DNA of 38,151 bases from Tissierellia bacterium (GTDB lineage Bacteria; Bacillota; Clostridia; Tissierellales; Tepidimicrobiaceae): contig JAAYHX010000014.1 of the NCBI GenBank assembly GCA_012735215.1, positions 1 to 38,151 on the forward strand, written 5' to 3'. The notes under the pieces were generated by a model. It searched no databases. It was not told the DNA's origin and saw nothing but the letters and a program-made list of their open reading frames with translations. Within the stretch, counting starts at the first letter, position 1, and every line of letters begins with the position of its first letter. Of the stretch, positions 26,249-38,151 are shown piece by piece. A program made the translations under genes and the position numbers.

Positions 26249-26277
26249 TTGACAAGACGAAATCTACTATGTAATAC
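26249..26277 (+). promoter_or_regulatory. Promoter of the XRE-ImmA pair
   Basis: TTGACA at 26249-26254, a 17-base spacer, then TAATAC at 26272-26277. The operator palindrome starts one base before the -10. Confidence 0.75.
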
Positions 26278-26285
26278 TATATTAC
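26271..26285 (+). promoter_or_regulatory. Operator palindrome, XRE promoter
   Basis: GTAATACTATATTAC is an inverted repeat with arms GTAATA and TATTAC and a 3-bp centre. It covers the -10 and start region. The same arms occur at 27557-27571. Confidence 0.7.
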
Positions 26286-26299
26286 AAGGAGGAATTTAT

Positions 26300-26638
26300 A
26301 TGGAAAGAGAAATCGGCAAAAGGATACGTGCTTTTAGAGAAGAAAAGGGACTTAGCCAGTTGAAACTAGTAGAGGAATTAAAAAAACATAATATTAAGAT
26401 GAGCAGGGAGACCCTTAGCAAGATTGAAAACAGCAGCAGATCCATTTCAGCCCTAGAGCTAAAGGCTATATCCACTGTATTGGGTGTGGATATAGGAGAT
26501 TTCTTCCAGGAAGAGGAGGAAAGCATGGTTACCTTCTTTAGGAAGAGAAACTTTCCCAAGAATGCCCTGGAGGAAATATCCAAGCTGCAAGAGATGGTAA
26601 AGGTATTTATAGATCACGAGAAGATGTATAAGGAATAA
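26300..26638 (+). CDS. XRE-family repressor paired with an ImmA/IrrE protease
   Basis: A 112-residue Cro/C1-type regulator. The helix-turn-helix covers about residues 5-65 with LSQLKLVEELKKHNIKMSRE and ISALELKAIS; a short helical C-terminal part follows. ATG 26300 is used because AAGGAGG lies just upstream and the promoter overlaps any earlier start. The ImmA/IrrE-type metalloprotease gene follows 38 bases later. In known pairs (ImmR-ImmA, DdrO-IrrE) the protease cleaves the repressor to relieve repression. The palindrome in its own promoter suggests autorepression. Confidence 0.88.
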   Translation: MEREIGKRIRAFREEKGLSQLKLVEELKKHNIKMSRETLSKIENSSRSISALELKAISTVLGVDIGDFFQEEEESMVTFFRKRNFPKNALEEISKLQEMVKVFIDHEKMYKE

Positions 26639-26676
26639 AAGACTTATGGATAGAAGATAAGGAAGGATGAAATAAT

Positions 26677-27453
26677 TTGAAAAAAGTTATAAATATTCCT
26701 GATGAACTTTACAGGCTAAAGATTAAGGAGTTAGCTGAGGAAGTCAGAATCAAGTTTGCTAAAAAGGGCTTGTCCGACATATTCGATATACTATCGGAAA
26801 CAGCCTTCTTGATTAGAAAACCCTTGAAAATAGAAAGCCTTTCAGGCTTCATAACCTATTATGAAGACCGGTTCATAGTATATTTAAACAGCAACTTTAC
26901 CCTAGGTCATGAGCGCTATACTGGAGCCCATGAACTCTACCACATAATGTACAATGAAGACATATTAAAAAAGGAGAAAATATTTATAGATAAGGATAAG
27001 TACAAGGAAGAGGAAAATAAGGCCGATGTATTTGCTGCAGAGTTTCTAATGCCAGAAGACTATGTAAAAGAAATATTCTATAAGATGGTCAATGTTAGTC
27101 CGGATGAAATACAGCCAAAACATGTAGTTCGCATGCACAATTATTTTAAGGTAAGCTATCGGGCTATGTTAAAGAGGCTGATTCAACTTAAACTCTGCGC
27201 TGAAGATAAGTATTTTTCTCTTCTTGAAATTGCCTCATTGGAAAACAAGGATAAGCTCCAAAGCCTAACTAGAGAAGAAGGATACAGTATAGACTTAATA
27301 GTGCCATCAGAAGTAACCTATATACCGAAAGAATACCTAGTTTACGTAAAAGCCAACTATGAAAATGGGAAGATATCCTATGAGGAACTAATAAAGACCC
27401 TAGATTTCATCAACCTTAGCCCTGAAGATTTGGGATATGAACAAGTTAAATAA
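26677..27453 (+). CDS. ImmA/IrrE-family metalloprotease
   Basis: A 258-residue zinc protease of the COG2856 type. The HEXXH site is H85-E-L-Y-H89, in GAHELYH. The downstream ENKADVFAAEFLMP segment (about 114-127) gives the third ligand and the typical FAxExLMP signature. A C-terminal region of about 90 residues beyond the protease core has no match that I know and may sense a signal. A TTG start at 26677 has AAGGATG upstream. It is cotranscribed with the XRE gene, and its likely substrate is that repressor. Confidence 0.9.
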   Translation: MKKVINIPDELYRLKIKELAEEVRIKFAKKGLSDIFDILSETAFLIRKPLKIESLSGFITYYEDRFIVYLNSNFTLGHERYTGAHELYHIMYNEDILKKEKIFIDKDKYKEEENKADVFAAEFLMPEDYVKEIFYKMVNVSPDEIQPKHVVRMHNYFKVSYRAMLKRLIQLKLCAEDKYFSLLEIASLENKDKLQSLTREEGYSIDLIVPSEVTYIPKEYLVYVKANYENGKISYEELIKTLDFINLSPEDLGYEQVK

Positions 27454-30984: not shown

Positions 30985-31953
30985 TTATGGTTTACGAAAA
31001 ACAAACAGATATTCATGTGCGATGAGCAAAAAGTTATAATCTATACTTCTTTGATACCAAAAACCTGTTGCACTACAGTTATGTTGCTCTTTTATTATAT
31101 TTTCTTTTAATAAAAAACCTGCCTTTAAAAAAGATTCCATAACCCTAAAACCAAGGGGTACCATATGTTTATTTCTTCTAGTATCTCCAATTAGTACTGC
31201 ACAATACTTGTTTGGCTTAAGTATCCTGAATAATTCTATAGCTACTTTGTATATTTCTTCCAAAAACTCATCTATATCTAATAATGAGAGATCACCTTCA
31301 ATATCCTTACTATAATGTATGATATTAGCATATGGAGGATGTGCACATATTAAGTCAATGCTATTATCTTCTAAAAAATCTAAGTTCCTTGCATCTGAAC
31401 AATATAGTTTCGGTTCATATTCACTATTATAGTTGAATCTTAGATTATGTTTAGAAAGCTTTATTGAATTTGGATTTATGTCAACTCCAATGCCATGTCT
31501 TTTTAATAGCTTAGTTTCTATCAAAGTAGTTCCACTACCTAAAAATGGATCCAGAACTATATCGTTCTCCTTTGAATACCTTAGTATTAAATTACGTGGT
31601 ATATAGGGAGACCAGTTGCCTCTATATTTACCATTGTGTGTTGCCCAGTTACCTCTCTGTTTAAAGCTCCAAACAGTAGTTGCTTCTAGTTTAAAATCCT
31701 TAGGTTCCCAGGCTTTTATATTTAATGGTTCTACTATATAGTCAGGATTATTCTCTTTTATTATATTTAAATTATCAGATACCACTTTTTGAGTAACGTT
31801 CAAATAGGATGCAATATTATTGATAGTATATCCTGAATTATTTAATGATACAATTTGATCTATAAGAGATTCATATTCTTCTGGATGGTGGTTTTTATAA
31901 TGTTCTATGTAATCGTTTGATGTTAATGATTTTGAGCATATTTCACAAATCAC
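30985..31953 (-). CDS. DNA methyltransferase with N-terminal C2H2-like finger and HTH
   Basis: A 322-residue SAM-dependent DNA amino-methyltransferase. Residues 1-23 hold a possible zinc finger, C3-x2-C6-x11-H18-x3-H22. A helix-turn-helix-like segment follows (about 38-62, GYTINNIASYLNVTQKVVSD). Motif I is DPFLGSGTT at 135-143 and comes before motif IV, HPPY at 205-208. DpnA-type enzymes show the reverse order, so this is not DpnA. The block WSFKQRGNWATHNGKYRGNW is a conserved N-terminal part of its own family. GTG 31953 has GAGGATG upstream. It is the last of three minus-strand restriction-modification genes, 14 bases after the endonuclease. Confidence 0.85.
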   Translation of the reverse strand: MICEICSKSLTSNDYIEHYKNHHPEEYESLIDQIVSLNNSGYTINNIASYLNVTQKVVSDNLNIIKENNPDYIVEPLNIKAWEPKDFKLEATTVWSFKQRGNWATHNGKYRGNWSPYIPRNLILRYSKENDIVLDPFLGSGTTLIETKLLKRHGIGVDINPNSIKLSKHNLRFNYNSEYEPKLYCSDARNLDFLEDNSIDLICAHPPYANIIHYSKDIEGDLSLLDIDEFLEEIYKVAIELFRILKPNKYCAVLIGDTRRNKHMVPLGFRVMESFLKAGFLLKENIIKEQHNCSATGFWYQRSIDYNFLLIAHEYLFVFRKP

Positions 31954-31967
31954 AGAATTTCATCCTC

Positions 31968-32840
31968 TCATAGCTTTATTATTTCATCTAAGATGCCGTC
32001 AAAAATCATTTTAGTATTTATTATAAAATCATTATTTATGAAGGCTTCTTTCAAAAAAGTTTTTGCAGTAGTCCAGCCTATTCCATCTGTTATCCAAATA
32101 AATTTATCAATTATTTCATGGCTTTTTAGAAATAAATCTAATGATTGAAATTCGCCTGCTACTGATTTTAATTTAGAGCCACCACCTGAGAAAAAGTTTG
32201 TTTCAATTAGGATTAGTTTATTATTTTTTAAAATAGCAAAATCGTATTGTCTAGAACTTTTATCTAGTGGGAGATCTAAATTCCATATATTCTTAATTTT
32301 ACTCTTAGTTGCTTGATTAATATATTCAAGATTTAGTTTATTGCAAACTGACTTTATATGCCATTCAATAATATCCTCCATAATTTTTCCACTTCGATTT
32401 TTTCTACTATTTGTTCCAATGCCTACTTCTAATCCTATACAATAGTCTACTAGGTTTTTTATTTTACGTTCCTTTAATAGCTGTAGCAAACCTAAATTAT
32501 CGCAAAACTCAACTATATTATAAATTTCAGATTGAGTGTACCTTTCCTTTCTAATAAAACTGTAATTCTTATACTCCCAATCAGGGGTCTTGAAGTTTAC
32601 AAGAACTTCAAGATTTCTTTTTCTTACTGCTATTAAAATAGGAATTGTACTTACTATGTTTGGATAATTATTGATTAATTTAGCAAACTCATCCTTGATA
32701 TTGTTTTTGCCGATTAAATAATTCAAGATATTTAACTCTACTTCAATGTTCTCAACATTATGAAACACCCGGCTCCAATCAATAAAGAAATCGAAAGTCC
32801 GATTTGTTTTCTTTAGATTCTCAATAAAATAATTAAACAC
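31968..32840 (-). CDS. DpnII/MboI-family type II restriction endonuclease
   Basis: Cleaves DNA, by family at GATC. It has 290 residues from GTG 32840. From memory of R.DpnII it shares NVE.I.V.LN..N.LIG..NI, the GLEVGIGTNSRKNRSG block (136-151), and the catalytic D200 followed by E213-T-N within LILIETNFFSG; also WITDGIGW near the C-terminus. The frame stays open upstream to about 32891, where a CTG lies eight bases after GGAAAGGAG; translation may start there and add 17 residues. It lies between two methylase genes on the same strand. Confidence 0.9.
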   Translation of the reverse strand: MFNYFIENLKKTNRTFDFFIDWSRVFHNVENIEVELNILNYLIGKNNIKDEFAKLINNYPNIVSTIPILIAVRKRNLEVLVNFKTPDWEYKNYSFIRKERYTQSEIYNIVEFCDNLGLLQLLKERKIKNLVDYCIGLEVGIGTNSRKNRSGKIMEDIIEWHIKSVCNKLNLEYINQATKSKIKNIWNLDLPLDKSSRQYDFAILKNNKLILIETNFFSGGGSKLKSVAGEFQSLDLFLKSHEIIDKFIWITDGIGWTTAKTFLKEAFINNDFIINTKMIFDGILDEIIKL

Positions 32841-32907
32841 ATCTTCCTCATTATATAACCCTAACTCACCGTATAATTCAATGTATTTCAGTTTTATTTC
32901 TCCTTTC

Positions 32908-33792
32908 CTAATAATTTATTATTAATAATTCAGTTATGATACCCCTACCGCTAGATTTTGAGTTTATAACACGTTTTGCATGAACACGCATAATATTGTA
33001 TTTGCTATATAATTTATCGAAGAATTCATCATTTTCATCAATGTTTTTTGGATCTGAGTTACTCAGCATTAATTTTGCATTTTTTTCATTTAATTCATTA
33101 AAGAAATTGGCCAACCTTATTTGTTCATCGTCATTAAAATCATTATCGGAATATGAAGTAAAGTTTGAGGTTGAGTTTAATGGTCTATAAGGTGGATCAA
33201 AATAAACAAATGTTTTTTCATCTACAAAGTCTCTTACATTTGTAAAATCCCCTTGTAAAATATCAACATTAGAAAGAGCATTTGATACACTGATTAAGTT
33301 ATCTTTATCTAGAATTGTAGGATTTTTATATTTGCCATGAGGCACATTAAACTCATTTTTAGAGTTAACTCTATAAAGTCCATTAAAACAAGTTTTATTT
33401 AAAAATAGTAAATAAACTGATTTATCAATACTTCCGCTAGGCGTGTTATTGAACAATTTTCTTATATTATAATAGTACTCAGCTCTCATATCAGTATCTA
33501 AATTTAGATATTCTTCCACAATTATTTCTAACTTATTTATCAATGTGTCTACATCATATTTAATTGCTTTATATAAATTAATTAAGTCTAAATTGAAATC
33601 ATTAATTACAATTTGTTCAAATTCAAATTTTTGGATTAAATCGAATAATACTGCACCACCGCCTACAAAGGGTTCAATATATTTAGTTATTTTGCCACTT
33701 AATAATTCGGATGGCAGATTTTCATTAATTATAGGTAAAAGCTGTCTTTTTCCTCCTGCCCATTTTACAAATGGGTAAATTTTTTTGTCCAT
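32908..33792 (-). CDS. Dam-family DNA adenine methylase (GATC)
   Basis: A D12-class N6-adenine methyltransferase of 294 residues, like DpnM. Motif I is F8-V-K-W-A-G-G-K-R16. The EPFVGGGAV block follows and motif IV is D199-P-P-Y202. The C-terminus has the family's SNSD segment. It would protect GATC sites from the neighbouring endonuclease. ATG 33792 has AAAGGTGAT upstream. It is the first gene of the minus-strand set. Confidence 0.93.
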   Translation of the reverse strand: MDKKIYPFVKWAGGKRQLLPIINENLPSELLSGKITKYIEPFVGGGAVLFDLIQKFEFEQIVINDFNLDLINLYKAIKYDVDTLINKLEIIVEEYLNLDTDMRAEYYYNIRKLFNNTPSGSIDKSVYLLFLNKTCFNGLYRVNSKNEFNVPHGKYKNPTILDKDNLISVSNALSNVDILQGDFTNVRDFVDEKTFVYFDPPYRPLNSTSNFTSYSDNDFNDDEQIRLANFFNELNEKNAKLMLSNSDPKNIDENDEFFDKLYSKYNIMRVHAKRVINSKSSGRGIITELLIINY

Positions 33793-34018
33793 CTAATCAC
33801 CTTTTTATGATATTCATTTTAGCTATATATATCTTAACGTATCTTATTGTTAAAATAAAGAACTTATAAATATTTTACTGAAACTTTCACTCTGAACGAA
33901 ATGATTGTTTGTTGTAATTGATATATAATGAAATTGAGGTGATAGAATTGACCACTAAGTACAATGAAAGATGTAACAAATAAGCTGAAATCTAAAGAGT
34001 ATCCGAAAGGAGAATGGG
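33793..34018. other. Gap with a short unassigned frame
   Basis: The minus-strand promoter of the methylase gene should lie here. A plus-strand 33-codon frame (33964-34065) has no recognisable product and overlaps the XRE remnant. Confidence 0.3.
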
Positions 34019-34162
34019 ATGACACACAAATTATTGACAGAAAAAGTTGGAATAAGAATGAGTAATCTTTCAAAAGTTTATGCTGCTTATTGTAATAAGA
34101 GTTTTTTTTACATGTTCTTTTTTGATATAGCTGATGCATTAGATGTAGATATTAAAGAATAA
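34019..34162 (+). pseudogene. Degraded XRE-type regulator remnant
   Basis: A 47-codon frame with AAAGGAG upstream. Its start (LTEKVGIRMSNLSK) and end (FDIADALDVDIKE) match the two sides of a Cro/C1-type helix-turn-helix. The middle, where the ERG and PSLETL segments should be, is replaced by unrelated residues. It therefore seems to be a decayed regulator rather than a working one. Confidence 0.5.
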
Positions 34163-34453
34163 TTTTAATGTATTGGAGAGGGGTTAGATAAGGTTAGGGA
34201 AACAAGAGTGATTTTTATTATATTTATTTATAAATCAATTATTCCATTTTAGTAAAAATGTACACTGTATTAATTACATATTTGATTGTCAAAAGGTTAT
34301 CGGTTATAGTTAAAGTAAAAGGCAAGAATAGTTATAGTAATTAGTGAATCTAAAGAAGACAAATCAGCTATAGGTACATTAGGATAATATACTTAAATAT
34401 ACACTTGCAATAATAAAGTTGTTAATGATAGTTAGTATAAAAGGGGGAGAAAT
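34163..34453. other. Gap ahead of the three-gene cassette
   Basis: I see no gene. The promoter for the cassette is expected here, but no clear pair of boxes can be chosen. Confidence 0.3.
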
Positions 34454-36229
34454 ATGTATCTGTTTATAGGCTTTTTCAAAGAAGATGAAATAGATCGCAA
34501 AAGAAAGTACATATCTGAGAAAAATGTTGAACCTATAAAAAAGGTTTTCCCTGCTTTTCTAGACTTAAATCATGCACATATAAAAGCAACAATTGGCTAT
34601 TTTCTTGGAAAGGGGAATGGTCAAAAGCCTTGTTTTTTGATGGACATAGATAACATAAGTGCATCGGAAAAAAATATAATAATAGATTTCAATAAAGTAC
34701 AGGAACTTGATAAGACCAGTGAAGAGATTAGAAAAGAGATATATAAAAAATCCTGGCAGTTTGATTGGATAGATAAAGAAACCGGTTTTTGTCCATTGCT
34801 GTTAATGGTTGATAAACAAACATTTGATTCTATAAGAAAAGGCACGGCTAATATAAGGAAGCTATCGGACAAGGGGGAGAAGGTAAGGGATTTAAAAGCA
34901 AAGAATAAATGGGATGAAATATGTAAGCTCTATGAACCCCTTGAGGATATCCATAAGAATTCGGACATATGGGACAATCCTGACGAGTTATATGAAATTG
35001 GGTTTGCTTGTAGTAAGATGGGTGAACCACAAAATGGGTTGGAGAAGGATAGAGAACATTTGAAGACAATAAAGAGATATAGGGATTTGAGTTTAAGGTT
35101 CTATAAGAGATGTTTCGAACTAGAACCAACAAGCTATAGATACGCTTCTTCGGTGGCCTACAGATACTATCAAAATATAAATGAACTGACAAAACCGAAG
35201 GGTAGAAGAGACGGCAATGTCAGTGAAGAAATTGAAAATGCTCATGAATGGTTTGATAAATCTCTAAGTCTATATCCAACCAGTATCAAGGACAACTATC
35301 GCAAGGGAAAGATGATTTTGGATAAGCAGTTGCCTAACATGAAGTATTCTGGTAGGGAACTACTAAGAGAGGATTTTCAAGAGATGGACAATCTAGAAGA
35401 TAAGGCTACTAATTGTTTGAGAAAGGCTATCGGGTCCTATGAATCATTATCAGATGATAATAGAAAAAAGTATTACAGGAACGAATATATTAAGTCTTTA
35501 TATACCCTTGGTAAATTCTATATAGATCAGGTTAAGTTACCTTGGAATGAATTCCTATGTAGTAGAATTGGGAATAAATTTTATTCACCATTATTTGCTG
35601 AGACGGAATACCTGGTTTATGGTAAAGAACTGATGGAAAAATGTTATAAAGAGGTTATTGGCATTGATATGAATGATGAATTAGACCTTGGCTTATTAAC
35701 TAACATTAGCAAAAAATCAACAACTTCACCTGTTGATATACTCTATTCCCTAGGTGTTCTATATTTTAAAATGTACTTTATTAAACATGTTCAAAACAAA
35801 CAGGATAATATTCAAGTCTATCGTTCCTACGCCTATAAATTTTTGAATGGAGCAATAGATTTAAGAAAGGAGTTTAGAAAGCAGAGGATACCATTCAGAA
35901 ATACCGACTATATCAATAACTGCTTAGCCAATCTAAATATTATTGATAATAACTATAGAGAGGCTATTTATAACACTAAAAGAAGTAAGACTAGTTACAT
36001 AAAAAATACCTATGCAGCAGCTTTAATGCTAACAAATGATATGAATAACATTAGGGAAGCCACAAGGATTCTTAAACCTATAGTTAGTGATAAACACAAT
36101 CTATCCAGAAATCTTTCAATTGTCCTATTAGCCAAGGCCTACCAGTTGATTGGAGAGGAGAAAGAACAAGAAAGATTAATAAATGACAGCAATAAATCAG
36201 TAGATAGACTATTAGAATTGATATTGTAG
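34454..36229 (+). CDS. Large helical-repeat (TPR-like) protein, first gene of a cassette
   Basis: A 591-residue protein with no signal peptide or membrane segment. The first 130 residues form a domain I do not recognise. From about 160 on, the protein is helical with repeat units typical of tetratricopeptide repeats, such as YEIGFACSKMGEP, RFYKRCFELEPTSYRYASS and EWFDKSLSLYPTSIKD. Further units run to the C-terminus. It is a likely scaffold or sensor. The ATG at 34454 follows AAAGGGGGAG. The stop is directly followed by the next gene, whose ribosome binding site overlaps it. Confidence 0.8.
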   Translation: MYLFIGFFKEDEIDRKRKYISEKNVEPIKKVFPAFLDLNHAHIKATIGYFLGKGNGQKPCFLMDIDNISASEKNIIIDFNKVQELDKTSEEIRKEIYKKSWQFDWIDKETGFCPLLLMVDKQTFDSIRKGTANIRKLSDKGEKVRDLKAKNKWDEICKLYEPLEDIHKNSDIWDNPDELYEIGFACSKMGEPQNGLEKDREHLKTIKRYRDLSLRFYKRCFELEPTSYRYASSVAYRYYQNINELTKPKGRRDGNVSEEIENAHEWFDKSLSLYPTSIKDNYRKGKMILDKQLPNMKYSGRELLREDFQEMDNLEDKATNCLRKAIGSYESLSDDNRKKYYRNEYIKSLYTLGKFYIDQVKLPWNEFLCSRIGNKFYSPLFAETEYLVYGKELMEKCYKEVIGIDMNDELDLGLLTNISKKSTTSPVDILYSLGVLYFKMYFIKHVQNKQDNIQVYRSYAYKFLNGAIDLRKEFRKQRIPFRNTDYINNCLANLNIIDNNYREAIYNTKRSKTSYIKNTYAAALMLTNDMNNIREATRILKPIVSDKHNLSRNLSIVLLAKAYQLIGEEKEQERLINDSNKSVDRLLELIL

Positions 36230-36238
36230 GTGAAATAT

Positions 36239-37588
36239 ATGAGAGTAGATATGTTGGACAATACCATCATCTGTGAAGGGGATGATCTACAAAAATCTCT
36301 AAACTACATAGATGAGAATAGACAATTACCCGTTGAGATAGAGAAGATAATCTTGAATGTAATATTTAAGGAATTAGGTTTGAAATATGATAAAAGTTTA
36401 AGCATAAAAGACAATCTGGACCTATTACCAAAGGATTTGTTAACTGAGATTATTTGGGATATAAACACCATGTTTAAAGGAAACAGAACAATAGATTATA
36501 GGGATAACTACTTAGCCTATGTAATGTACTATTTGCCAGTAAACGTTTTTAAAATATGGAAACCACTATTGGATTTACATATTAATAGTACCTTAAAGAG
36601 GGATGCAAGAATTCTTGATGTAGGAACAGGGCCGGGATCAGTACCTTTAGGCATTATAGAGTTCTATAAAAAACTTGCTACTGTATATGAGGAGGTTGAT
36701 TTCAGTTTAGAATTTGTATTAGTAGATGCTCAAAATGACTTTCTTAGAATAGCCAACAAGATTATCCAATCAGTGAAAATGTACCTACCTTCCAATTTGA
36801 AAGTAAATCTAAAAGAGACTATATGTACTAAAGTAACAGCAGAAAGCGATTATAATCTAGACAAATTTGACTATATAACCATGAGCAATTTCCTTGCTAT
36901 AGGAGAGGGCAATAACTCAAAATATTCCTATGATATTGTAAGCCAATTTGCAGATAAGCTAGAAGAAGATGGATCTTTTATAATTATTGAGCCAGGAGAT
37001 AAAGAACATTGTATAAATTTGAAGAGATTGAGAAATAAATTAGTAAACAATGGAAAATTCAATGTATATTCTCCCTGCGTAGGTATATGGGAGAAAAAGG
37101 ACAACTATGAGTGTAGTTGTTTTAATACTGTAAGGTTGCGTTGGGAACTTCCTAATATATTTACATATTTTAAGAAGAATGGCTTGAAACATAGTTTGCG
37201 AAAAGATGTGCCCTTTAATTATACTGTTTTCAGAAAGGATGGATTTATTAAATATGAGCCTATAACTAATATCCAACACTTTACAAAACTATCTCAGCTA
37301 AGGGAAAACATTGGGAGTGTGATAAATATTGTTGCCTTCATCAGGACCACCATCTACAGAGGGGATTATATTAAGTTGGCATTGTGTGATGGAAGCTCCT
37401 GTTATGGTGGAAATATTGAAGGGGTATGGATAGACATACCCATGGACAGATTTGAGGGCATAGGACAAGATATCAAGCTTATTGCAGGGGAAAGGATAAA
37501 AATACTGAAAGTGCTTGTAAACAAGGGTGGAAGGAATACTTTCTATTTAAATCTAACAGAGGAAAGCAAAATAAGGATTGAATATTAA
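36239..37588 (+). CDS. Rsm22-like SAM-dependent methyltransferase with extra C-terminal domain
   Basis: A 449-residue protein. A helical N-terminal part (about 1-115) precedes a Rossmann methyltransferase domain with motif I RILDVGTGPGSVPLG, then FVLVDAQ, YITMSNFLA and GSFIIIEPGD. A cysteine-bearing stretch, SPCVGIW and YECSCFNTVRLRWE, resembles the cluster region of Rsm22-type ribosomal RNA methyltransferases, but has three cysteines where Rsm22 has four. The last 85 residues look like a small beta-barrel (OB-like) domain. ATG 36239 is used because AGGTG sits six bases upstream; GTG 36230 is in frame. The target RNA or other substrate is unknown. Confidence 0.75.
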   Translation: MRVDMLDNTIICEGDDLQKSLNYIDENRQLPVEIEKIILNVIFKELGLKYDKSLSIKDNLDLLPKDLLTEIIWDINTMFKGNRTIDYRDNYLAYVMYYLPVNVFKIWKPLLDLHINSTLKRDARILDVGTGPGSVPLGIIEFYKKLATVYEEVDFSLEFVLVDAQNDFLRIANKIIQSVKMYLPSNLKVNLKETICTKVTAESDYNLDKFDYITMSNFLAIGEGNNSKYSYDIVSQFADKLEEDGSFIIIEPGDKEHCINLKRLRNKLVNNGKFNVYSPCVGIWEKKDNYECSCFNTVRLRWELPNIFTYFKKNGLKHSLRKDVPFNYTVFRKDGFIKYEPITNIQHFTKLSQLRENIGSVINIVAFIRTTIYRGDYIKLALCDGSSCYGGNIEGVWIDIPMDRFEGIGQDIKLIAGERIKILKVLVNKGGRNTFYLNLTEESKIRIEY

Positions 37589-37602
37589 AGAGGGTGAAAA
37601 TA

Positions 37603-38151
37603 GTGATTTTAAGCGTTAGCCGCAGGACAGATATACCAGCCTTTTATTTGGAATGGTTTATTAATAGGATAAAAGAAGGACATGTTCTTGTTAGAAACCC
37701 CATGAACTATAATATGGCAAGCAAGGTAAGTTTAGATCCTAAGGTGATCGATTGTATAGTTTTTTGGACCAAAGATCCTACCAACTTTTTAAAGCGAATA
37801 GATGAATTTAGTGACTATAATTATTATTTTCAAATTACTGTAACTCCTTATGGTAGGGATATTGAAAAACATATTAGAGATAAGAATCAGATTATCCACT
37901 CTTTTAGGGAATTATCCAAAAGGATTGGTAAAGAGAGAGTTATATGGAGATATGATCCTATAATCATAACAGATAATATGCAAATTGAATACCATAAAAA
38001 AGAGTTTAAAAGGTTAGCAGAAGAGTTCTCTGGCTATACTGATGTATGTGTTATAAGCTTCCTTGATATGTATAGCAAAACCCAACGAAACATGAGGGAG
38101 GTCAATCCATTAAATATAACAGAAGAAAAAATGTATGCTATTGCTGGAGAA
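37603..38151 (+). CDS. DUF1848 protein, 5' part
   Basis: The frame is open to the window edge (183 codons). It matches DUF1848 in its typical start, ILSVSRRTDIPAFYLEWF, and in the later VRNPMN, CIVFWTKDP, TVTPYGRDIE, ERVIWRYDPI and VISFLDMY. The family has an unassigned biochemical role; a C-terminal cysteine cluster known from relatives would lie past the edge. GTG 37603 follows AGAGGGTG. It lies 14 bases after the methyltransferase gene, so the three genes appear to be one operon. Confidence 0.85.
   Translation, partial: MILSVSRRTDIPAFYLEWFINRIKEGHVLVRNPMNYNMASKVSLDPKVIDCIVFWTKDPTNFLKRIDEFSDYNYYFQITVTPYGRDIEKHIRDKNQIIHSFRELSKRIGKERVIWRYDPIIITDNMQIEYHKKEFKRLAEEFSGYTDVCVISFLDMYSKTQRNMREVNPLNITEEKMYAIAGE

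Follow-up and report, generated by a model that had tools for sequence, protein, structure and literature searches.

Results

Genes at the end of the window

The stretch of DNA analysed here (the window, 38,151 nucleotides) ends in three genes on the + strand. The first (34454..36229) encodes a TPR protein of 591 aa, a putative sensor or scaffold (PADLOC TPR, 5.1e-16; AlphaFold2, Foldseek). The second (36230..37588) encodes an Rsm22-like SAM-dependent methyltransferase (MT) of 452 aa, identified by hhalign, alignments and a tree. The third (37594..38151) encodes the first 186 aa of a DUF1848 protein (Pfam, 4.8e-72), since the contig ends at 38151 and cuts the gene; this piece is the sole DUF1848 match in the whole genome. 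The gaps between the three ORFs are 0 and 5 nt, in line with the close packing that the sequence-only reading had described. It had also placed a restriction-modification set next to the trio, and a set of DpnII type does adjoin it at 30985-33792: an N6/N4 methyltransferase (30985-31953), a DpnII nuclease (31968-32840; 1.3e-90) and a Dam-type methyltransferase (32908-33792). All three lie outside the trio and on the - strand, and are therefore divergent from it. An Rfam search of 33000-38151 returned no matches.

A conserved, rare and patchy operon

The full trio is visible in 8 loci, always in the order TPR protein, MT, DUF1848 and with intergenic gaps of -14 to +22 nt, and a DUF1848 gene follows every intact MT that we found (9/9). 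Intact trios include those of Sedimentibacter acidaminivorans DSM 24004 (L027) and of UBA3930 (L025). Such tight packing, recurring in 8 loci, is more than chance would produce, and several bacteria that are distant relatives of one another share the trio. We conclude that the genes are real and form a unit, as the proposal of a three-gene system had it.

Within the order, the operon occurs in 4/249 genomes, one of these copies being broken. Broken copies are present in four genomes (G029, G063, G179 and G1004), all of them drafts, so that sequencing errors may account for some. Loss of the MT or the TPR gene is frequent. DUF1848 is intact without the TPR gene in G029 and G063, and G041 has the TPR gene without MT or DUF1848, while its congener G025 has the full trio. 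The operon is best explained as an accessory one of Bacillota that is rare and horizontally patchy in distribution; its rarity, patchiness and frequent breakage make it unlikely that the MT/DUF1848 pair has a housekeeping role. The sequence-only reading had named genes found mostly apart as evidence against a system. This is the case for DUF1848, which exceeds the Pfam cut-off in 40/196 genomes of the class, mostly without the other two genes; it is not the case for the MT, and it holds for the TPR protein only in G041.

A profile scan for the MT in genome contigs gave 11 loci, seven of trio type and four of Rsm22 type; scanning the genome contigs with a single MT protein sequence gave none. 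The MT scan found no match in viral contigs or plasmids and one in phage records.

The methyltransferase is related to Rsm22 and METTL17

Pfam matches of the window MT (Methyltransf_31, 1.2e-5; Rsm22, 0.0083) are both under the curated cut-off. For the Rsm22 family (PF09243) it scores 16.0 bits against a gathering cut-off of 23, which its kin also miss (22.1 bits in L018, 20.6 bits in L015). Aligned by hhalign with an Rsm22-type alignment, the MT matches over 301 columns (probability 99.9, E 2.1e-31). A PDB search with the Rsm22 profile recovers METTL17, mt-SAF1 and yeast Rsm22; the same search with the trio MT profile retrieves no Rsm22 or METTL17 structure (best E 0.29).

The SAM motif is intact (LDVGTGPGSVP), and C283, C295, C297 and C386 are candidate Fe-S or Zn ligands. 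An APCHxxCP motif, a loop-end Cys and an OB-domain Cys are among the Rsm22 features that PMC8171064 describes. In the trio MTs the first Cys (SPC) and the last (LCDG) are invariant (9/9); compared with APCHxxCP, the middle cysteines are present at a different spacing and the His is not kept. The profile alignment bears out the Rsm22-like cysteines of the sequence-only reading; its OB-like domain is predicted by Rsm22 homology only, by which the C-terminal domain would be of OB type.

The trio MTs share with Rsm22/METTL17 a Rossmann methyltransferase fold, the Y..YYLPvN helix motif, GxGPG, a cysteine region towards the C-terminus and, late in the C-terminal domain, one more Cys. They differ in a longer N-terminus, in their cysteine spacing (SPC-x11-CxC), in forming a separate clade (97/94) and in always occurring with DUF1848. 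The MT forms a branch that is sister to Rsm22/METTL17. The catalytic role of METTL17/Rsm22 is disputed.

Two relatives of the MT are fused to helicases, one to RecQ (L022) and one to a Cauli_VI-UvrD helicase (L098), and both loci also contain DUF1848; in the alignment, the MT of L098 is missing the cluster region. We considered and rejected the MT as a substitute for a housekeeping Rsm22. A clear Rsm22 is found in 1/61 relatives (G033, 2.2e-72), and Rsm22 exceeds the cut-off in 5/61, four of them marginal, with none in the window genome; Rsm22 being so scarce, there is little for the MT to replace. In G063 a housekeeping-type Rsm22 does coexist.

The TPR protein and the DUF1848 protein

Pfam TPR matches of the first protein are below threshold. 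Its AlphaFold2 model (pLDDT 87.4) predicts an alpha/beta N-terminal domain (about residues 1-130) followed by a TPR superhelix. With the whole model, the best Foldseek matches are TPR superhelices of generic TPR proteins; a PDB search with the N-terminal domain found no relatives.

The DUF1848 relatives in trios are 311-333 aa long and carry CxxxCxxC in the C-terminal part. The motif, invariant in 14/14 aligned relatives, lies beyond the cut end of the window copy, so that for the window protein it is known from relatives alone. For a relative (L025) modelled by AlphaFold2 (pLDDT 90.5), the first 30 rows of VIA structural matches are all radical-SAM enzymes (Z 8.2-10.2); Foldseek ranks other TIM barrels on top, with low TM-scores, and radical-SAM enzymes from ranks 48-49. 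Pfam Radical_SAM matches 1/14 members, below the cut-off (E 0.0029, 18.2 bits versus 29.5), and a PDB search with DUF1848 found no relatives. DUF1848 probably adopts a radical-SAM barrel in circularly permuted form, and seven of its cysteines are invariant. It resembles radical-SAM enzymes such as spore photoproduct lyase, RlmN and viperin in its CxxxCxxC and predicted barrel fold, and differs from them in the C-terminal position of the cluster motif (254-261 of 315), as the predicted permutation has it, and in four further invariant cysteines (198, 214, 240, 242), which make up a second set.

Among stand-alone DUF1848 genes, one has an HhH-GPD glycosylase as its neighbour (L053), another adjoins Sir2 and a protein-ADP-ribose hydrolase, and a third, on a Planktothrix plasmid, lies near AlkB. 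Since DUF1848 is common outside trios beside such macro/Sir2 or DNA-repair genes, its basic job may be repair. We also rejected a single MT family for all DUF1848 partners, as hhalign comparisons with the trio MT are weak (probability 22%, 9%). By eye, the partners in L043, L045, L051 and L086 and the C-terminal part of that in L084 look like Rossmann methyltransferases; Pfam assigns no family to the first four, and for the L084 partner it gives RnlA_toxin (1.1e-5, below the cut-off) and Methyltransf_34 (0.024).

Defence genes near the trio

We counted a defence gene near a trio when a PADLOC match reached E<=1e-50. Six of the seven trio loci with usable flanks have one, as the sequence-only reading anticipated: DpnII in the window (3.7e-93), PbeA in Sedimentibacter (4.9e-232), a DruE-like helicase 22 nt downstream in Desulfosporosinus (DruE, 1.2e-88), DruE in AS21 (7.3e-59), DpdE within 10 kb (8.6e-251) and DruE about 12 kb away (5.3e-102) in UBA3930, and the GmrSD-type Orf5 in DTU074 (8.3e-99). 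The neighbours comprise DpnII, ARMADA-like YprA/DruE or DpdE/DrmD helicases, PbeA/PbeC and GmrSD. The seventh trio (G025) lies amid ordinary genes, with no PADLOC match at 1e-10 among 6 flanking proteins scanned out of 19 non-trio ORFs of at least 90 aa. Two further loci (L029 and L030) were excluded because their contigs are only about 5 kb long.

The controls were 12 regions taken from five genomes, eleven spanning 20 kb and one 15.5 kb, in which we scanned all 105 ORFs of at least 280 aa. Tallied by family, these gave one RtcR-type match, or at most three proteins: in each of three families of RtcR type a single member passes 1e-50, probably the same protein every time. The excess at trio loci, 6/7 versus 1 (at most 3) of 12 regions, has a one-sided Fisher p of 0.0017 (0.017 in the worst case), where the trio neighbours scanned were chosen by eye and the control ORFs were not. 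DruE-like helicases occur in 8/199 genomes of the order, yet at three trio loci. The defence association of the trio is thus supported by a small control.

Comparison with known defence systems

TOTE systems are defined by TPR, OB, TBP and effector components (PMC12458937, in its definition). Like TOTE and TALON, the trio combines a TPR protein with nucleic-acid enzymes; an AEP-TOTE primase-helicase follows the AS21 trio, and in a locus on a viral contig (L084) a TPR-DUF7017 gene, an RnlA-like/MTase-like gene and a DUF1848 gene follow one another. Unlike TOTE, the window trio has no TBP-like protein (by Pfam) and no separate cold-shock protein, the OB/cold-shock feature entering only through homology with the Rsm22 C-terminal domain. 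Three trios resemble ARMADA/Druantia in having YprA/DruE-like helicases in neighbouring operons; the trio is nevertheless absent from the ARMADA genes as published and can occur without them, as in the window, whose genome has no DruE at 1e-40. The window DUF1848 also matches PADLOC RTasDUF1848 (DRT-associated DUF1848) at 6.1e-25, but we found no reverse transcriptase among the trio neighbours examined.

Discussion

Starting from the conserved operon, the family relations, the defence proximity and the MT-helicase fusions, we infer what the trio may sense and target, by what chemistry, in what order and to what antiviral effect. We give about even weight to the possibility that the operon is an accessory module protecting against phages or mobile genetic elements through nucleic-acid modification. 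The TPR protein, with its alpha/beta domain and superhelix, would sense infection or dock the enzymes; the MT would use its Cys-cluster/OB region to bind nucleic acid, which it would methylate with SAM; and the DUF1848 enzyme would then perform a radical step at the same or a nearby site, adding a further modification or causing damage. The RecQ, UvrD or YprA helicases at these loci suggest that a DNA helicase often presents the substrate. It is thus plausible, as the sequence-only reading proposed, that the trio senses, modifies and processes RNA or DNA: the helicases, whether fused or neighbouring, suggest DNA or RNA-DNA hybrids, and the kinship with Rsm22 suggests RNA. That kinship would favour ribosomal RNA over invading DNA, which speaks against a defence role.

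An accessory operon for translation control or ribosome modification is an unlikely alternative. The MT would act on 16S rRNA or tRNA, as its Rsm22/METTL17 kin are presumed to do, a further modification would come from DUF1848, and both would be regulated under stress by the TPR protein, the defence location reflecting shared mobility only; if triggered by infection, the same activity would amount to abortive defence. The profile kinship with Rsm22-type proteins, the structures recovered by the Rsm22 profile and the retained APC/SPC and VCNG/LCDG cysteines argue for it, as does the four-Cys [4Fe-4S] cluster by which METTL17 binds the small subunit (PMC11046306). Against it stand the DNA-type partners (RecQ/UvrD fusions beside DUF1848, YprA helicases adjoining trios), the failure of the trio profile to retrieve such structures and the missing cluster region in L098.

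We think it quite improbable that the trio is a repair or damage-tolerance module carried by islands as mere vehicles, in which DUF1848 would reverse a lesion by radical chemistry, assisted by the MT and TPR protein. Spore photoproduct lyase is a structural match (4k9r, Z 9.3, rmsd 3.2, 177 aligned); the match is not specific, however, because the first 30 VIA rows span many unrelated radical-SAM reactions. The glycosylase, AlkB and Sir2/hydrolase neighbours also favour repair, but they belong to stand-alone DUF1848 rather than to trios, and repair leaves the MT-TPR pairing and the broken copies unexplained. Least probable of all, in our judgement, is a toxin-antitoxin-like or selfish cassette, with a toxic MT and DUF1848 restrained by the TPR protein. 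The tight operon, the frequent loss of MT or TPR and the lone TPR gene of G041 beside the full trio of G025 would suit such a cassette; DUF1848 kept intact without TPR in G029 and G063 would not, and no known toxin family appears among the matches.

If the operon does defend by modifying nucleic acid, a bolder and rather doubtful extension is that an MT paired with a permuted radical-SAM enzyme forms a new class of effector against phages and mobile elements, which would hypermodify or break nucleic acid and be portable across sensors and motors. Our literature search for radical-SAM plus methyltransferase chemistry in phage defence found no description. Were this extension true, phage defence would gain that chemistry, DUF1848, a large family without assigned role, would acquire a testable cofactor and partner, and METTL17/Rsm22 would have bacterial, non-ribosomal relatives. 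The partners would include the TPR protein, RecQ, Cauli_VI-UvrD, TOTE-like TPR/RnlA elements and perhaps reverse transcriptases, with the window trio as one architecture.

Conservation of the trio

In the window, ORF reading places all three genes on the forward strand: the TPR protein at 34454-36229, the Rsm22-like methyltransferase (MT) at 36230-37588, and DUF1848 from 37594 to the window end at 38151, with spacings of 0 and 5 nt. The contig end truncates DUF1848, leaving 186 aa, and a whole-genome search of this 1.9 Mb draft returned that piece as its sole match, with no second copy. A DpnII-type restriction-modification set, assigned by family matches, lies at 30985-33792, divergent from the trio. 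At 26249-27453 we also note a gene that looks by eye like an HTH-type regulator, and after it one for an ImmA/IrrE-like peptidase (Peptidase_M78, 9.9e-15; PADLOC PDC-M69B, 1.4e-34).

The sequence-only reading proposed that these genes form a system and suggested a search for the trio in other genomes, where it does recur. ORF comparison finds the full trio, in identical order and with gaps of -14 to +22 nt, at eight loci: the window, L015 (genome G025), L025 (=L017, UBA3930), L028 (=L018, DTU074), L031 (=L020, Clostridiaceae AS21), L027 (Sedimentibacter acidaminivorans DSM 24004, genome G569, of the same order as the window genome), L029 and L030. At L026 (Desulfosporosinus) the contig begins 65 nt upstream of the MT, and MT and DUF1848 are visible. 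Across the eight full trios and this pair, DUF1848 is the next gene downstream of every intact MT (9/9). Identity to the window proteins is 28-46% for the MT and 20-43% for the TPR protein.

Properties of the three proteins

The AlphaFold2 model of the TPR protein (pLDDT 87.4) comprises an alpha/beta domain to residue ~130, which was the N-terminal part that the earlier reading had marked for structure prediction, and then helical repeats. These repeats, together with Foldseek matches to general TPR superhelices, bear out the TPR-like repeats proposed from sequence.

Aligned by hhalign to an Rsm22-type alignment (one Pfam Rsm22 protein, L024, 2.3e-78, plus four relatives), the trio MT scores a probability of 99.9 (E 2.1e-31). 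In the PDB, the Rsm22-type profile matches METTL17 (3.8e-16) as well as the trypanosome protein mt-SAF1 and Rsm22 of yeast; the trio MT profile by itself found none of these three in its PDB search. The SAM motif is intact, and the SPC and LCDG cysteines are invariant in 9/9 MTs. One clade has the middle cysteine pair as CxC; in the other clade this pair is displaced. Four such cysteines hold a [4Fe-4S] cluster in METTL17, according to the accessible part of PMC11046306; Rsm22 family features used for comparison come from the accessible part of PMC8171064. In a tree that carries long-branch warnings, trio MTs group with RecQ and UvrD fusions, separate from Rsm22 (97/94).

Seven cysteines (198, 214, 240, 242, 254, 258 and 261) are common to 14/14 aligned DUF1848 relatives, and the last three form CxxxCxxC. 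For a relative modelled by AlphaFold2 (pLDDT 90.5), the best 30 VIA structure matches are all radical-SAM enzymes (Z 8.2-10.2), of which those with Z of 9-10 barely exceed the usual best of 7-8. Among them is spore photoproduct lyase, aligned over 177 residues with an rmsd of 3.2 A; the alignment starts at lyase residue 134, downstream of the lyase cluster motif. Since CxxxCxxC lies at the opposite end in DUF1848, we infer a circular permutation, and the protein may be a circularly permuted radical-SAM barrel. Against this reading, Foldseek ranks other TIM barrels ahead of radical-SAM, and the Pfam Radical_SAM match is below cut-off.

Rarity and decay

The trio operon is rare and decaying. The MT profile matches 4/249 genomes of the order, and a single-protein MT search matches 9/391 of the class, which we read as four intact trios (the window genome G000, G356, G287, G436), two broken (G063, G179), an MT-RecQ fusion (G144), a remnant beside DUF1848 (G366) and an ordinary Rsm22 (G392). 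The matches in the phylum (3/398 genomes) are the window genome itself and two weak ones. Within the UBA3930 family 6/7 genomes match, as two intact trios, three broken and one Rsm22 only; the trio of genome G029 is likewise broken. At the same place in two congeners, G025 (L015) has the trio and G041 (L080) the TPR gene only.

Other architectures

In genome G144 (L022:4999-10217) the MT-RecQ fusion (1154 aa) is followed by a coiled-coil gene (260 aa, with a hydrophobic stretch at the C-terminal side) and then DUF1848. The faecal 'phage' record MT837669.1 (L098:1449-6424) encodes a TPR-DUF7017 protein, a Cauli_VI-UvrD-Cauli_VI-MT fusion (1216 aa) and a DUF1848 truncated by the record end. An IMG/VR contig (L084:5367-8939) carries a TOTE-like row of TPR-DUF7017 protein, RnlA-like/MTase-like protein and DUF1848. 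At L043, L045, L051, L086 and L099 an MTase-like gene (by eye) lies 0-2 nt upstream of DUF1848. Also by eye, tyrosine-recombinase-like ORFs lie farther out at L022, a tyrosine integrase at the opposite record end of L098, and a serine recombinase downstream at L084.

Defence neighbourhood

Enrichment near defence genes, a check that the earlier reading proposed, is supported by a small control: six of the seven trio loci with usable flanks have a PADLOC match at <=1e-50 nearby, versus one (at most three) of 12 control regions (Fisher one-sided p 0.0017 or 0.017, respectively). Among the 105 control proteins only RtcR-type matches reach 1e-50. The window flank has DpnII (PADLOC); that of Sedimentibacter has PbeA and PbeC (PADLOC) and GmrSD_N (Pfam); DTU074 has a GmrSD-type protein 3.3 kb upstream. 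In Desulfosporosinus a DruE-like helicase lies 22 nt downstream of DUF1848. The AS21 trio is preceded by a DruE-like part and, nearer to it, by a GajB-like UvrD protein whose end is 12 nt from the TPR gene; on the other side, DUF1848 is followed by an AEP-TOTE primase-helicase. In UBA3930 the upstream flank has a DpdE/DrmD-like helicase (~9 kb), a DruE-like helicase (~12 kb) and, closer to the trio than either, a IIG-type MTase, a gene order that is that of ARMADA type I in the accessible part of PMC12458937. On the genes present, some of them identified by eye, these neighbours are putative ARMADA or RelE-GajB fusions. DruE-like helicases occur in 8/199 genomes of the order. None of the six flanking proteins scanned in G025 gave a PADLOC defence match.

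MT-DUF1848 recurs alongside a range of sensors and helicases, in surroundings that are rich in defence genes or mobile. Our preferred reading is that the two proteins are paired effectors of conflict systems, their target and chemistry left to inference, and that the TPR trio is one version of this pair. PADLOC already ties a DUF1848 family to DRT. The literature searched, from which subscription papers are mostly absent, contains no mention of 'DUF1848' and, among the papers listed, no antiphage system that pairs radical-SAM and methyltransferase chemistry in this way.

Stand-alone DUF1848

DUF1848 exceeds the cut-off in 40/196 class genomes, and in the 30 loci read it is mostly alone. At L064 and L101 (Roseburia plasmid NZ_CP135163.1) it lies beside macro-domain/protein-ADP-ribose hydrolase and Sir2 genes, neighbours that suggest it may act in ADP-ribosylation or in the repair of stress damage. 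Elsewhere it lies near an HhH-GPD glycosylase (L053) and, on Planktothrix plasmid NZ_LR882935.1 (L100), near AlkB, on the opposite strand with one gene between.
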